Position numbers and translations under genes: made by a program. 64,000 nt of DNA from Verrucomicrobiota bacterium (GTDB lineage Bacteria > Verrucomicrobiota > Verrucomicrobiia > Limisphaerales > UBA9464), in the NCBI GenBank assembly GCA_947454705.1, contig CANGKZ010000002.1, forward strand, positions 204,882 to 268,881, written 5' to 3'. This document shows, in pieces, positions 40,984 through 46,051 of this stretch (the stretch's first letter is position 1; each line of letters begins with the position of its first letter). The notes under the pieces were generated by a model, which saw only the letters and a list, made by a program, of their open reading frames with translations, was not told the DNA's origin and ran no database searches.

Positions 40984-42194
40984 GGGTGGTTGGGGAATTC
41001 GAAGTGGCGTTGGATGGCTTGGGAGCGCACGACCTCGGAGAAGGCTCGATCGAGGGTCGCTGCAGCAGTCGATGCCGGTCGGTTCACTTCCAGCCATCGG
41101 TTGCGCTCCCGGTTGAGCGAGTCGATTTCCCCCTGGATCCTGGCGCGCTCGGAAGTTTTTGCGGCGATGTACTCGCGCTTCTCGGCGACCGATCTGCCGC
41201 GGAGTTCCGCGGGGAGCCGGGAGTCGTCGAGTTCCTCGAGCGTTACGGTTTTCTCCCGATAGGCGTCCACCAGATCCCAGGTCGAATTCCGGTAGTTGGA
41301 CGAAGCCTTGGTGAGGGCACGTTCCACACTGGAACCCGCGAGGCGGTTGGCGTTGGCCCCGGCATCCTGTGCCGACTGGCGGTTTTGTGCCGCGAGCGCC
41401 GCCGTAGGATCGCCATACGGAATGTAGGTCCGGTTGAGCTCGATCCCGAGGGCCGCAATGCGGTCGTCGTAAGGGGTGGGGACGTGGGCAACCGCAGCGT
41501 CCTGATTGATGACCATGAAGCGACCTTCGGCGAGTTTTGCGCCGTCCATCCAGTGCCCTTCACGGCCTTCGGCTTCGGATCCGCAGTGGATCGTGTTCAC
41601 CACGATGCCGCGTCCGATCGCCGAACGGCAGGCATCGACGTAGCTCACGGTTCCCTGTGTGAAAGGTTCGTTGCCCGCGATGAAGATGGCCTTGTAGTCG
41701 TTGCCTGCATGACTCCACTGAAGGTCACGAACGGCGTCCCGGATGACCCATCCGCAGTATTCCTCGCCCCCATTGGTGACGAGCCGGAACAGTTCCTCGG
41801 AGACGCGGTCGAGGTCCGTGGTGAACGCGAGAATTTGTCGGACATAACCGTTGATCGGTGAGAGCCGGCTGTTCCCGTATTCGTAGAGGGCGACCTGCAC
41901 GATGGGCGTTTGTCCATCGCGTCGGGAGTCCTTGAACTCGTTGACGATTCTCCAGAGCTGGGACTTCGTCTGGGCGATGAGACCGTCCATGCTGGTGCTG
42001 GTGTCGAGCAGCAGGGCGATCTGAACGAGCGGGCGAGCAACCGCGGGACGCGGGGCGTCGAGAGTCGCGGCGGCGTAATTCAGAGGTTTCGGAGCGGGAT
42101 CGCCAAGGCCGGCATGGACTGCAATGGCCATGATTCCTGCGGCGGCGAGCCAGCGGAGTTTGGGGAAGCGAGCGTTTGAGGAGTGTGGATTCAT
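40980..42194 (-). CDS. Exported von Willebrand factor A domain protein
   Basis: A 404-residue protein with a signal peptide (LRWLAAAGIMAIAVHAGLG). The vWA domain starts at LVQIALLLDTSTSMDGLI, which has the DxSxS metal-site motif. IFIAGNEPFTQG and GIVVNTIHCG follow. The C-terminal third is a charged, probably helical region (RGRSVAEKREYIAAKTSERA). The start at 42194 gives the signal peptide; a longer frame to 42281 is unlikely. It is the first gene of a two-gene operon with the SIMPL-domain protein. Such pairs may work on envelope proteins, but the role is unknown. Confidence 0.87.
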   Translation of the reverse strand: MNPHSSNARFPKLRWLAAAGIMAIAVHAGLGDPAPKPLNYAAATLDAPRPAVARPLVQIALLLDTSTSMDGLIAQTKSQLWRIVNEFKDSRRDGQTPIVQVALYEYGNSRLSPINGYVRQILAFTTDLDRVSEELFRLVTNGGEEYCGWVIRDAVRDLQWSHAGNDYKAIFIAGNEPFTQGTVSYVDACRSAIGRGIVVNTIHCGSEAEGREGHWMDGAKLAEGRFMVINQDAAVAHVPTPYDDRIAALGIELNRTYIPYGDPTAALAAQNRQSAQDAGANANRLAGSSVERALTKASSNYRNSTWDLVDAYREKTVTLEELDDSRLPAELRGRSVAEKREYIAAKTSERARIQGEIDSLNRERNRWLEVNRPASTAAATLDRAFSEVVRSQAIQRHFEFPNHP

Positions 42195-42446
42195 GATGTC
42201 GGTCGTCTTGACCAACACCAGTATGGGCGCGTCTCCCCTCGCGTGTGTAAGCTGTACGTAAAGAGCCCTGCATCGAGCCAACGATTGGTAACCATTGATT
42301 GGAGGCTTGGGGAAATTCCGACCGCTTTGGTGACAATTTCACTGATTCGCAGCCGGTTTCGGATTCTCATGGATTGCATCCGATGGAGACGGGTTGAACA
42401 GTGGGCGGGGTTGTGGGGTCGGAAGGCGGAAGGTTTAGCGTTCCAA

Positions 42447-44609
42447 ATGAAAATCCAACGGATGCGGTTTGCTCGCAACTTCTGCTCCTTCTTCTTCGTC
42501 GCCGCGCTCTGGATGGGTGCGATGCCCGGGCGCCCGTTGGCAGCTGCTGCCCCAGCCGGGGCTTCTTCTGCCGGAGCCGATTCGCGAATGCTTCGAGCCC
42601 TCTCCCATGCACCGCAGCAGCCCAGGGCGGGGCAGCCTGTTCGGGTGTCGGTCAAAGTGTCCAAGGCCGTCGGCGTTCGGTCCGTTGCCTTGGAATATCA
42701 GAGCGTCGATCCGGGGAAGTATATCGCGTTGGCCGATCCTGCGTTTCGGACGAAGTGGATTTCCGCGCCCATGACGGAGACCTCAACCGCGGGTGAGTAT
42801 GCAGCCGTTCTGCCCGGGGAACTTCAGGTCAATCGCCGGCTGATTCGCTATCGCGTGGTGGCCACGAATTCCAGCGGCGTGCGGGTTCAGTTCCCGTCGG
42901 CGAAGGATTCGCAGCCCAATGAGGCCTACTTCGTGTACGACGGAATTCCCGCGTGGAAGGGAGCCATCGATTCCAAAGGCCCCGATCCCAAGCGCAATGC
43001 GGCCACGACGTTTTCCCCCGAGATCATGAGCCGTGTGCAGTCGTACCATTTGATCTCCTCGGCGAGCGCCGTGGAGAAGGCCACCTGGACGGAACGCTCC
43101 GGCGACAAGGAGTATCATCACACCGGCACGCTCGTGGCCGATGGCCGGGTGTACGACCACGTGCGGTTTCGGGCGCGCGGGGGCGTCTGGCGTCACGCCA
43201 TGGGCAAGAACATGTGGAAGGTGGATTTCAATTCCGGTCACGCCTTCGAGGCGCGGGATGACTACGGCCGCCCGTATCAGGTGAAATGGGGCAAACTCAA
43301 TTTGCGGGCGTGCATCCAGCAGGGCGATTACGGGCATCGGGGCGAGCAGGGGATGTTTGAAGCAGTCGGGTTTCGCCTGTTCAACCTCGCGGGAGTGGAG
43401 TCGCCGAGGACGCATTGGGTGCAGATGCGTTTCGTCACCGACGCCGAGGAATCGCCTGCCGATCAATATCGCGGGGACTATTGGGGATTGTACCTCGCCA
43501 TTGAGAACGAGGACGGACGTTTTCTAAAGGAGCACGGTCTGCCTGACGGCAATCTCTATAAAATGATGGGCGGGGGAATCCTGAGTCACCAAGGCGCGGG
43601 GCAGGCAACCAACCAGTCGGATGTGAATGCCTTCCTCGCCGGAATCCAGGGGCCCACGACCGAAGCGTGGTGGAGGGAGAACGTCGATTTGGCGCGCTAT
43701 TATAGCTATCGAACGATCCTCGAAGGGATTCACCATTATGATGTCGATTCGGGAAAGAATTATGACTTCTACCTGAATCCGTTGACCCACCGATGGGTGC
43801 AGGTGCCGTGGGACATTGACCTGACCTGGGCGGACAATATGTACGGCTGGGGGCAGGATCCGTTTGTTCGCGGTGTGACGGGATTTCCAGCGCTCCGCCG
43901 CGAGTTGGGTCAACGCGCGCAGGAGATCCGCGACCTGCTCTTCAATTCGGAGCAGGTGGGTCAGTTGATCGATGAATGTGCCTCGCTCATTGCCGATCCT
44001 TCGGGCAGGCCATCGGTCGTGGATGCCGACCGCGCGAAGTGGGATTTTCATCCGGTGATGACGTCGCCGCATGTGTTGGAGGACAAGGCGGGGAAGGGGC
44101 TGTTTTACCAGGCGTCTCGATCGGGCGACTTTGCCGGAATGGTCCGGTTGATGAAGGACTATGTGGAGGCCCGGTCGCAGTTGCTGGACCAGATGATCAG
44201 GGCGAGCGGGGTTACGTTCCCGGCATCACCAGAAATCCAGTCGGTCTCCTCCGATGGGTCCGCCGCGGTGGACGCGTCGAAGCTTCAGTTCAAGGCGTCA
44301 TTGGTCACCGGATCGGATGCCGCTTCAATTGCCGCCACCGAATGGCGAGTGGGTGAGATCAATGATTTGAAGACCCTGGGTCACACGAAGGGAAAGCCTG
44401 GCCACTATGAGATCGCGCCGGTGTGGCTGAGCGGCGAGAAACCGGGATTTCAATCCTTGGTGAACCTCCCGGCGAATGCGGTTCAACCCGGACATGTGTA
44501 CCGGGCCCGGGTGCGCGTGCGCACGGTGACAGGAGCATGGAGCCGGTGGTCCAAGCCCGCGGAGTTTGTGGTCGCCGGGGCCGCGCGTGGTGCGGGGCCT
44601 CGGCAGTAG
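42447..44609 (+). CDS. CotH-family protein kinase, exported
   Basis: A 720-residue protein of the CotH kinase family, first known from Bacillus spore-coat protein H, an atypical protein kinase. A signal peptide (FCSFFFVAALWMGAMPGRPLA) is followed by an N-terminal beta domain. CotH motifs follow: FRARGGVWRHAMGKNMWKVDF, DYWGLYLAIENEDGRFLKE, and SGKNYDFYLNPLTHRWVQVP leading to WDIDLTWADN (catalytic aspartates). The C-terminal part looks like a fibronectin-like module. I chose the ATG at 42447. No obvious substrate is encoded next to it. It is divergent from the vWA operon, with a 252-base gap in which I see no further signal. Confidence 0.85.
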   Translation: MKIQRMRFARNFCSFFFVAALWMGAMPGRPLAAAAPAGASSAGADSRMLRALSHAPQQPRAGQPVRVSVKVSKAVGVRSVALEYQSVDPGKYIALADPAFRTKWISAPMTETSTAGEYAAVLPGELQVNRRLIRYRVVATNSSGVRVQFPSAKDSQPNEAYFVYDGIPAWKGAIDSKGPDPKRNAATTFSPEIMSRVQSYHLISSASAVEKATWTERSGDKEYHHTGTLVADGRVYDHVRFRARGGVWRHAMGKNMWKVDFNSGHAFEARDDYGRPYQVKWGKLNLRACIQQGDYGHRGEQGMFEAVGFRLFNLAGVESPRTHWVQMRFVTDAEESPADQYRGDYWGLYLAIENEDGRFLKEHGLPDGNLYKMMGGGILSHQGAGQATNQSDVNAFLAGIQGPTTEAWWRENVDLARYYSYRTILEGIHHYDVDSGKNYDFYLNPLTHRWVQVPWDIDLTWADNMYGWGQDPFVRGVTGFPALRRELGQRAQEIRDLLFNSEQVGQLIDECASLIADPSGRPSVVDADRAKWDFHPVMTSPHVLEDKAGKGLFYQASRSGDFAGMVRLMKDYVEARSQLLDQMIRASGVTFPASPEIQSVSSDGSAAVDASKLQFKASLVTGSDAASIAATEWRVGEINDLKTLGHTKGKPGHYEIAPVWLSGEKPGFQSLVNLPANAVQPGHVYRARVRVRTVTGAWSRWSKPAEFVVAGAARGAGPRQ

Positions 44610-44620
44610 TCATGCGTTCG

Positions 44621-44722
44621 AAAGCGCCAGAGGACTGGCGCACTCCACGACGCTGTCGCGACCTGGTCCTCCGCGCGGCGAACTCCGCCAGGTCTTGGAC
44701 TGCGGTAGTCCTCTACCGCTTT
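44621..44722. repeat. Double-hairpin REP/BIME-like element
   Basis: AAAGCG at the left end pairs with CGCTTT at the right end. The left hairpin is GCGCCAG-AGGA-CTGGCGC (44624-44641) and the right hairpin is GCGGTAG-TCCT-CTACCGC (44702-44719). The right one read in reverse complement is the left one with four paired, compensatory changes. Between them ACCTGG (44661-44666) pairs with CCAGGT (44688-44693). It lies 12 bases after the CotH stop codon. Confidence 0.75.
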
Positions 44723-44968
44723 AAACGGAGCAACCGCCGCCAACTTGAACCCCTTTTTGGAAATTGAAGGGCGACGCGGATTCCAAACGGGATGATGGGC
44801 AGGATAAGCCCAGAATCCTTCGCCTCTTTGGTGAGCCTTCAATCCCTCCCGTTCCCGCTTTTGAATCTGCGTTCATCCGCGTTGCTCTGCGGTTTCAAAA
44901 CGGGGTGTGGGGCGGGCGGGTAGCAGTTCCTGCTTGAGTCGGCGGGCGGTTGGATTCCACATCTTCGC
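44723..44968. other. Gene-free rest of the CotH-esterase gap
   Basis: The 359-base gap holds the double-hairpin element at its left end. At 44868-44900 it has a degenerate block of the ATCTGCGTTCATCCGCG family, also seen near 10.6 and 40.1 kb. A short inverted pair, TGGGC/GCCCA, lies near 44793-44811. No gene or clear promoter was recognised. Confidence 0.5.
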
Positions 44969-46051
44969 ATGTCGTTCCCCGGAATTCGCCTTCGTCGCCA
45001 CGCCTTGGCCCTGGTCGCCTCGGCGCTTGTTTCAGGAGTGGTCCATTCCCCCGCGCTCTCCACCGCCTCGGCCGCGGAGGCGTATCGCGAGTTCCCCGGG
45101 GCCGATGGGGACGGACAGTTCGTGGTCGGGCCCGCGTATCAGATCGATCCCGATCTCACCGACCGCGGCAACCCGCAGGGAAAACAGTTCGTGTTCTCCA
45201 TGCGCCTCGCCGACAGTAAGATCTTCCGCGGCGATGACACCACGCTCGAGCCGGCCAAGAAGGCGGTTCGCACCGAGCGCAAAATCTACGTGTACATCCC
45301 CGCGGCGTATCGCGATGGGACCCCGGCTCCGGTGCTCGTGACCCACGACGGTCCGAGCCAACTCAAACTGGTCAGCCGCGCGCTCGACAACCTCACCGTG
45401 TCCAAGAACCCGAAGCGGAAGCTCCCGGCGTTCATCGTCATCGCCGTGGAAAACGGCGGCAACGATGGCAAGAACAGCGAACGCGGGCTGGAGTACGACA
45501 CAATGTCCGACCGTTACGCGCGCTTCATCAACGACGAGGTGTTCCCGGCGGTGTTGTCCGACGCCACCATCCGCGCCGCGTATCCGAAGTTGTCCATCAC
45601 TTCCAATCCCTGGGGCCGCGCCACGATGGGCTGCAGCTCCGGCGGCGCCGCAGCGCTGACCATGGGATGGTTCCGTCCCGACCTGTTCCGCCGCATCGTT
45701 GCCTACTCCGGCACGTTCGTGGATCAGCAGGACGACGACGCGCCGGAGGAGGCAAAGTTCCCGCTCGGCGCCTGGGAGTATCACTCGGGCATGAAGCTGA
45801 TCGAGAACAGCGACAAGAAGCCGCTTCGCATCTTCACCCACGTGTCGGAAAACGACCTTCGCGCGAAGGATCCCGAGAACACGTATCACAATTGGGTCAT
45901 GGCTGGCGGTCGCACTGCCGATGCGCTCCAGAAGAAGGGCTATCATCACCGCTACGTCTTCAGCAAGGCGACCGGTCACTGCGACGGACGGGTGTTTGAA
46001 TCGACGCTTGCCGACACCCTGGTGTGGCTGTGGCGCGGGTATCACGAGTGA
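44969..46051 (+). CDS. Exported esterase, enterochelin-esterase-like alpha/beta hydrolase
   Basis: A 360-residue exported hydrolase. A signal sequence (RRHALALVASALVSGVVHSP) precedes the esterase-D-like fold. RKIYVYIPAAYRDGTPAPVLVTHDG is the typical first core strand region. RATMGCSSGGAAALTMGWF has the nucleophile elbow GCSSG (S223), and KATGHCDG supplies a plausible catalytic histidine. The family hydrolyses esters of siderophores, feruloyl or acetyl-xylan type substrates; which one is used here cannot be decided. A hairpin without a T-tract follows the stop codon. Confidence 0.85.
   Translation: MSFPGIRLRRHALALVASALVSGVVHSPALSTASAAEAYREFPGADGDGQFVVGPAYQIDPDLTDRGNPQGKQFVFSMRLADSKIFRGDDTTLEPAKKAVRTERKIYVYIPAAYRDGTPAPVLVTHDGPSQLKLVSRALDNLTVSKNPKRKLPAFIVIAVENGGNDGKNSERGLEYDTMSDRYARFINDEVFPAVLSDATIRAAYPKLSITSNPWGRATMGCSSGGAAALTMGWFRPDLFRRIVAYSGTFVDQQDDDAPEEAKFPLGAWEYHSGMKLIENSDKKPLRIFTHVSENDLRAKDPENTYHNWVMAGGRTADALQKKGYHHRYVFSKATGHCDGRVFESTLADTLVWLWRGYHE

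Follow-up and report, generated by a model that had tools for sequence, protein, structure and literature searches.

What kind of element lies between two protein-coding genes of this Verrucomicrobiota contig, and what placed it there? Judged from the ORFs and their Pfam matches, the element (44621-44722 of the window, which is the whole 64,000-nt stretch analysed) is intergenic. Upstream of it, on the plus strand at 42183-44609, lies a gene for a CotH kinase-like protein (PF08757 CotH, 73 bits), whose stop codon is found 11 nt ahead of the element, and the downstream gene, on the same strand at 44969-46051 and 246 nt past the element end, encodes a putative esterase (PF00756 Esterase, 60 bits). 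An earlier note on this DNA had recognized the architecture of a REP pair, of the sort that a RAYT transposase usually spreads. We consider it very probable that we are dealing with a REP doublet (REPIN), in which two related, inverted units with outward feet and a fixed spacing are set just 3' of a gene and were spread by the action of a RAYT, the partner of the target's own unit type (hereafter A-type) probably being missing from its genome (hereafter G000). This reading is carried by the copy number, the fixed doublet length, the occurrence of solo units, the covarying stems and the RAYT genes of related genomes, which have units with this layout on their flanks.

The doublet, whose 102 nt were delimited by the count of doublets in the genome and by the edges of blastn matches, is composed of two units. 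Unit 1 (44621-44661, plus strand) has a foot, AAA, followed by the hairpin GCGCCAG-AGGA-CTGGCGC (44624-44641), the motif ACTCCA and the tail CGACGCTGTCGCGA. Unit 2 (44684-44722, minus strand) is inverted and has the foot AAA, the hairpin GCGGTAG-AGGA-CTACCGC (44702-44719; GCGGTAG-TCCT-CTACCGC on the forward strand of the window), the motif AGTCCA and the tail AGACCTGGCGGA. The inverted pair of 18-base hairpins with AGGA/TCCT loops that the earlier note described can be read directly at these positions, as can the outer ends it named, AAAGCG (44621-44626) and CGCTTT (44717-44722), with the AAAG feet pointing outward. Both tails are separated by a spacer (44662-44683), which on comparison of copies varies in sequence and is nearly constant in length, and the 31-nt arms of the element are 81% complementary. 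Inside the window the hairpin pattern has two matches, both of them the hairpins of the target, and a plasmid collection searched with the element gave no match.

The element is far from being single in G000 (5.4 Mb in 80 contigs, 95.7% complete). With at most two mismatches allowed, 78 unit matches were counted genome-wide compared with 3 for the reversed pattern, and blastn of a 108-nt query against the whole genome returned 45 matches, two of which represent the opposite strand of doublets already counted. The matches begin and end at query positions 4-105 in many copies, which indicates sharp ends. Full inverted doublets number 28, and 26 of them are exactly 102 nt long, the remaining ones measuring 101 and 104 nt. 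Altogether, the first type was recovered as 39 distinct units and the second as 32, most of them within the 28 full doublets; some units of both types stand alone, and others are arranged in the opposite order with feet inward. At one locus (L066, G000:C65:14000-18498), several units follow each other in one direction at distances of about 0.7-0.85 kb with shared sequence after each, an arrangement reminiscent of tandem duplication of a larger segment. Partial similarity between copies was also seen beyond the 102 nt, at window positions 44606-44620 (near cgtCc.GCaTtC) and 44723-44780 (near gAcggaGCcaatgcCgcc), so some copies sit inside a larger repeat mosaic.

Inverted pairing is kept in the other doublets as well. 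Hairpin 1 is paired at 7/7 positions in 23 of the 28 doublets and hairpin 2 in 20 of them, and the outer ends AAAGCG/CGCTTT are paired 6/6 in 24. When 106 distinct units from all loci were collected by a pattern that did not fix the two inner stem positions, these positions were found to be paired in 91 and 88 units, counts that are inflated by the relatedness of the units, while in the shuffled control the means were 48 and 54 and the highest counts 64 and 67. The pair types present at the inner stem were CC/GG, GC/GC, GT/AC and CG/CG. Both the 28 doublets and the comparison of the 106 units with shuffles support the earlier proposal that stem changes preserve pairing. The inner ACCTGG/CCAGGT helix that completed the proposed structure (44660-44666 with 44688-44694) does exist in the target, but it is fully paired in just 2 of the 28 doublets, and for this reason it lies outside the element proper. 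Neither outcome that would have refuted the earlier note, a single copy in the genome or other copies devoid of inverted pairing, was observed. Taken as an architecture, the REP pair of the earlier note stands, and the target is a REP doublet resembling REPINs and BIMEs.

Clustering of the ORFs located beside units revealed one protein adjoining units, or lying between them, at four loci (L135, L141, L160 and L282), and inspection by eye of the 40 largest ORF clusters showed this RAYT to be the sole recurrent mobiliser-like gene between units. Profile scans covered two relatives of the protein encoded on contig C20 of G000, the L282 and L135 proteins; these scored 76.7 and 70.3 bits against NCBIfam NF047646, under its cut-off of 80, and neither had a hit in Pfam, PF01797 included, at E 0.001. 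A profile built from 16 proteins had one match in the PDB, namely 4er8, the E. coli TnpA-REP (E 3.5e-9), and 4er8 was also the best match of the structure predicted for the C20 protein (mean pLDDT 82.7), followed by the ISDra2 and IS608 transposases. The alignment of 16 RAYTs contains an NHYH motif (NYYH in one of the 16) plus Y-x-H. Judged by sequence and predicted structure, with the HUH motif, a putative catalytic tyrosine and the predicted TnpA-REP fold all present, the C20 gene and its relatives are RAYTs.

The protein was detected in 22 of 58 genomes searched at E 1e-6, and its close members comprise 18 genes with at least 49% identity to the query in 16 of the 58; in an even draw of the phylum, the gene was present in 37 of 288 genomes at E 1e-20. 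RAYT frames with an in-frame stop were observed at L299-L302 (in G035, G037, G025 and G026) and at several phylum-draw loci, which is consistent with decay, and G025 and G026 still carry A-type units. In G002 and G004, about 1 kb at most separates an A-type RAYT from the sliding-clamp gene dnaN (L135 2326-2895 and 3724-5235; L399 and L400). At the corresponding place in other members of the genus, the neighbouring cytochrome c gene was present, and neither the RAYT nor dnaN was found within the stretch fetched. An IS200-like Y1 gene was also considered as the partner and rejected. The sole PF01797 gene in G000, on contig C26, has no unit in the 10 kb around it; 9 of 81 stretches around such genes (one genome place being counted twice, as L084 and inside L277) contained an A-type match at up to 5 mismatches, which a rough reckoning judged unenriched, the distance to the gene being hundreds of bases to kilobases for most of these matches and the match itself poor in several.

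Linkage of RAYT and repeat was assessed by looking within 400 nt of each RAYT for units of the frame A[AGT]A-GC-hairpin-GC-A[CG]TCC[AG]. All 18 close RAYT loci were flanked by such units, 14 of them on both sides (reversed control, 0/18), and so were 20 of the 21 phylum-draw loci, 16 of them on both sides (reversed control, 0), amounting to 38 of 39 loci, 30 on both sides, and 0/39 for the reversed control. The phylum set represents 21 of 29 loci, the other eight (L355, L361, L365, L368, L371, L377, L379 and L381) having been left out since there the gene is close to the end of a contig and its position within the locus is uncertain. The frame was set on the loci of the relatives and was later given its present foot, A[AGT]A, and end, TCC[AG], in the light of a first scan of the phylum loci, which had given some hit at 24 of 29 loci, several of them unconvincing, and 6 hits over 29 in the reversed control. 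Units of the general frame were absent from all 22 other Y1 loci scanned (those longer than 3200 nt, out of 30) and from the distant RAYT matches L303-L305. In a test free of the frame, a repeat of at least 14 nt was common to both flanks at 35 of the 39 loci, and 32 of these 35 repeats carried a foot or tail motif, itself short and loose, compared with 6/39 when flanks of different loci were paired in a single random draw.

In two genomes of the same genus as G000 (G002 and G004), the RAYT lies between GACGCT-tailed and CCTCGCGGA-tailed units, which are the two tail classes of the target, and the adjoining A-type units have an identical GCGGTAGAGGACTACCGC head. Close A-type variants adjoin the RAYT in G005, G016, G017 and G030, the RAYT of G017 being surrounded by eleven units, and alternating arrays occur in relatives. 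A Y1-type RAYT with the same hairpin at its ends, which the earlier note had named as the gene to look for, is thus present in sister genomes. The exact unit core was found in 20 of 39 genomes, G000 counted, and the reversed pattern in none of the 39. A stricter pattern compared with GTDB genomes gave at least 115 stretches, nearly all titled Verrucomicrobia or a subgroup of it; Alphaproteobacteria, Acidimicrobiia or Proteobacteria appear in the titles of a few, which come from metagenome bins and may have been binned wrongly. Among 165 units taken from the first 80 of these loci, the AGAGGACT core is present in 122, and the stem letters vary, with the foot and TCCA mostly constant. Of the CotH orthologues examined, at 72-73% identity, 3/3 have no copy of the element downstream; the gene that follows is a different one as well, so these places are not clean empty sites. 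All genomes compared are drafts.

Only one RAYT of the clade was found in G000 (G000:C20:484-1035). The REP units on its flanks (L297, G000:C20:195-1116) have a longer loop, AAAGCGGTG-TCGACGCTCCGCTCTGC-CACCGCACTCCA, and represent a subfamily that outnumbers the A-type; units of this C20 type reach 144 copies in G000 at up to 3 mismatches, with none in the control. They share the frame AAAGCG...CGCACTCCA, the foot, stem base and 3' motif being as in A-type units, and differ in inner stem and loop. An A-type RAYT was sought in G000 and none was found; it may have been lost or may lie in the unassembled part of the genome. Given that the sole clade RAYT found is flanked by another hairpin subfamily, the target subfamily in G000 is probably an inherited population without its RAYT partner. 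The interpretation of the earlier note is supported by the relatives, where the gene is flanked by the units, with the qualification that the RAYT found in G000 has units of another subfamily beside it.

The distribution of copy numbers was examined in the 39 genomes common to the unit and RAYT searches, using exact-pattern counts taken by hand. At least 10 exact A-type units were present in 5 of the 6 genomes that carry an A-type RAYT, in 3 of the 8 whose RAYT is of another type and in 4 of the 25 where no clade member was detected at high score, and the difference between the first group and the rest (5/6 vs 7/33) gave a Fisher p of 0.007. Sizeable A-type populations with another RAYT or none detected, as in G003, G007, G010, G015, G025 and G026, count against the reading of a doublet spread by its RAYT. 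So does the RAYT tree, which is poorly resolved and in which the A-type RAYTs do not form one clade (3 changes, with 13 of 500 shuffles as low); hairpin type clusters weakly on it.

It is conceivable, though we doubt it, that the A-type units of G000 are not orphaned at all and that the resident C20 RAYT also acts on them. The foot, stem base and 3' motif common to the two subfamilies would allow this, and a single REPtron of E. coli is described in PMC6006769 as holding two REP subtypes, Y and Z2. However, the 2.5 kb around the C20 RAYT contain no A-type unit, whereas RAYTs of the sister genomes have such units as their flanks, and G006, which carries the RAYT nearest to that of C20 (support 90/90), has zero exact A-type units.

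We infer the mobility and function of these REPs, and the course of events under the preferred reading, that of a REP doublet spread by a RAYT, is modelled on E. coli TnpA-REP and IS608 (as treated in PMC8266576). Each unit would fold into a hairpin whenever the region is single-stranded, for instance on the lagging strand. The RAYT would recognize the foot (AAAG) together with the hairpin, cut nearby and rejoin the strands, with the foot guiding cleavage. By the same analogy, the doublet would be the form that spreads, reaching further intergenic sites by being copied there or by moving. The target subfamily would have been spread by an A-type RAYT like that of the two same-genus genomes, and would persist in G000 without this partner.

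An element that acts mainly as RNA, and is retained because it terminates transcription or shields the upstream message at its 3' end, seems unlikely to us. REPs elsewhere are credited with transcript-end roles (in the account of PMC3733652), and the target both begins just past a stop codon and folds more stably than all 200 shuffles (z -4.9 as DNA and -5.2 as RNA). But no terminator-like site was found in 44560-44980, an Rfam scan of the window returned two tRNAs only and no match at the element, and solo units and many-unit arrays occur; moreover, an RNA role could coexist with mobility. Very unlikely is a MITE of a DDE transposon with the 31-nt arms as terminal inverted repeats, for although the target is an imperfect palindrome with sharp edges, like the ERIC or RUP elements, half-elements are found alone and in opposite order and the recurrent mobiliser-like gene between units is, among the 40 largest ORF clusters, the RAYT.

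The foot of the units departs from the usual guide of RAYT-linked REPs, GT[AG]G, on which the automatic REP search described in PMC6006769 was built. Hairpins preceded at 0-2 nt by a GT[AG]G foot were present at 4 of 39 RAYT loci vs 8 of 39 reversed controls, and those with an A[AGT]A-GC foot at 25 of 39 vs 2 of 39; in the comparison of feet over 80 units, most frame positions were fixed by the search itself. By its foot, the target falls outside the GTAG REP superfamily. The CGTC superfamily, which has a CGTC foot and no linked transposase, was rejected too: the target has AAA 5' of its hairpin, and a RAYT is linked to it in relatives. Five positions of E. coli TnpA-REP are tied to GTAG reading (PMC6006769), and in our alignment with 4er8 (numbering by eye) W94 and E100 are kept and Q95, H101 and R104 are replaced.

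A non-GTAG REP is in itself not unheard of, such hairpins being recorded for TnpA-Y1 subclass 2.6 and class 3 (PMC6006769). As far as the text of that published classification goes, an AAAG foot and Verrucomicrobiota were not found in it, the string 'verrucomicrobi' being absent from its main text. A literature search for RAYT, REP or REPIN in Verrucomicrobiota, with supplementary files and subscription journals outside its scope, gave one relevant title, PMC3733652, which reports GTAG repeats in Opitutus terrae. We lean towards the view that GTAG and CGTC are not the only REP superfamilies and that Verrucomicrobiota hold another, which would be defined by the AAAG foot and the A[CG]TCCA 3' motif and read by a RAYT lineage with three of the five GTAG-reading positions changed. 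Loops and inner stems diverge between genomes and the frame is fixed, so in such a superfamily the frame would be the part that the enzyme reads. According to PMC8266576, A3G4 of GTAG pairs with the CT cleavage dinucleotide, and AAAG has A3G4 in common with GTAG. Just 3' of the hairpin, CT (in ACTCCA) occurs in many units and GT (in AGTCCA) in others; since some units carry GT instead, pairing of the AAAG foot with this CT through A3G4 is only a suggestion by analogy.

A phylum-wide RAYT lineage with a different foot provides a natural experiment on the reading and cutting of REPs by RAYTs. Such a lineage also shows why standard models miss both the repeat and the enzyme, as seen with the two scanned proteins, and same-genus genomes with differing RAYTs allow one to ask how long REPs persist without a partner.

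Compared with known systems, the target resembles the REPIN/BIME elements of Pseudomonas and E. coli with their RAYT/TnpA-REP in its short hairpin units, fixed-length inverted doublets and high copy number, and further in heterodimers of two unit types and in a RAYT flanked by units, but has the foot AAAG (A[AGT]A before GC) and a conserved 3' A[CG]TCCA where those elements have GT[AG]G. The GTAG REP superfamily as presented by Di Nocera 2013 (PMC3733652) includes a Verrucomicrobiota species, Opitutus terrae, and is alike in heterodimers and RAYT-linked REPtrons, whereas its GTAG/GTGG foot was not found beside the RAYTs studied here. Among the TnpA-Y1 groups characterized in PMC6006769, with motifs compared by eye for both subclasses, subclass 2.8 is similar in NHYH and a proline-rich N-terminus and differs in its GT[AG]G REPs; subclass 2.6 is similar in YIH[QN]NP, a length of about 179 aa and atypical flanking hairpins, and differs in NH[LIV]H and in being mostly from Bacteroidetes; and class 3 is similar in having a non-GTAG foot (CnGA) and differs in its Y----Q motif. 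The element is ordinary in kind and soundly observed, and it belongs to a system of RAYT and REP that has a recognition frame of its own.
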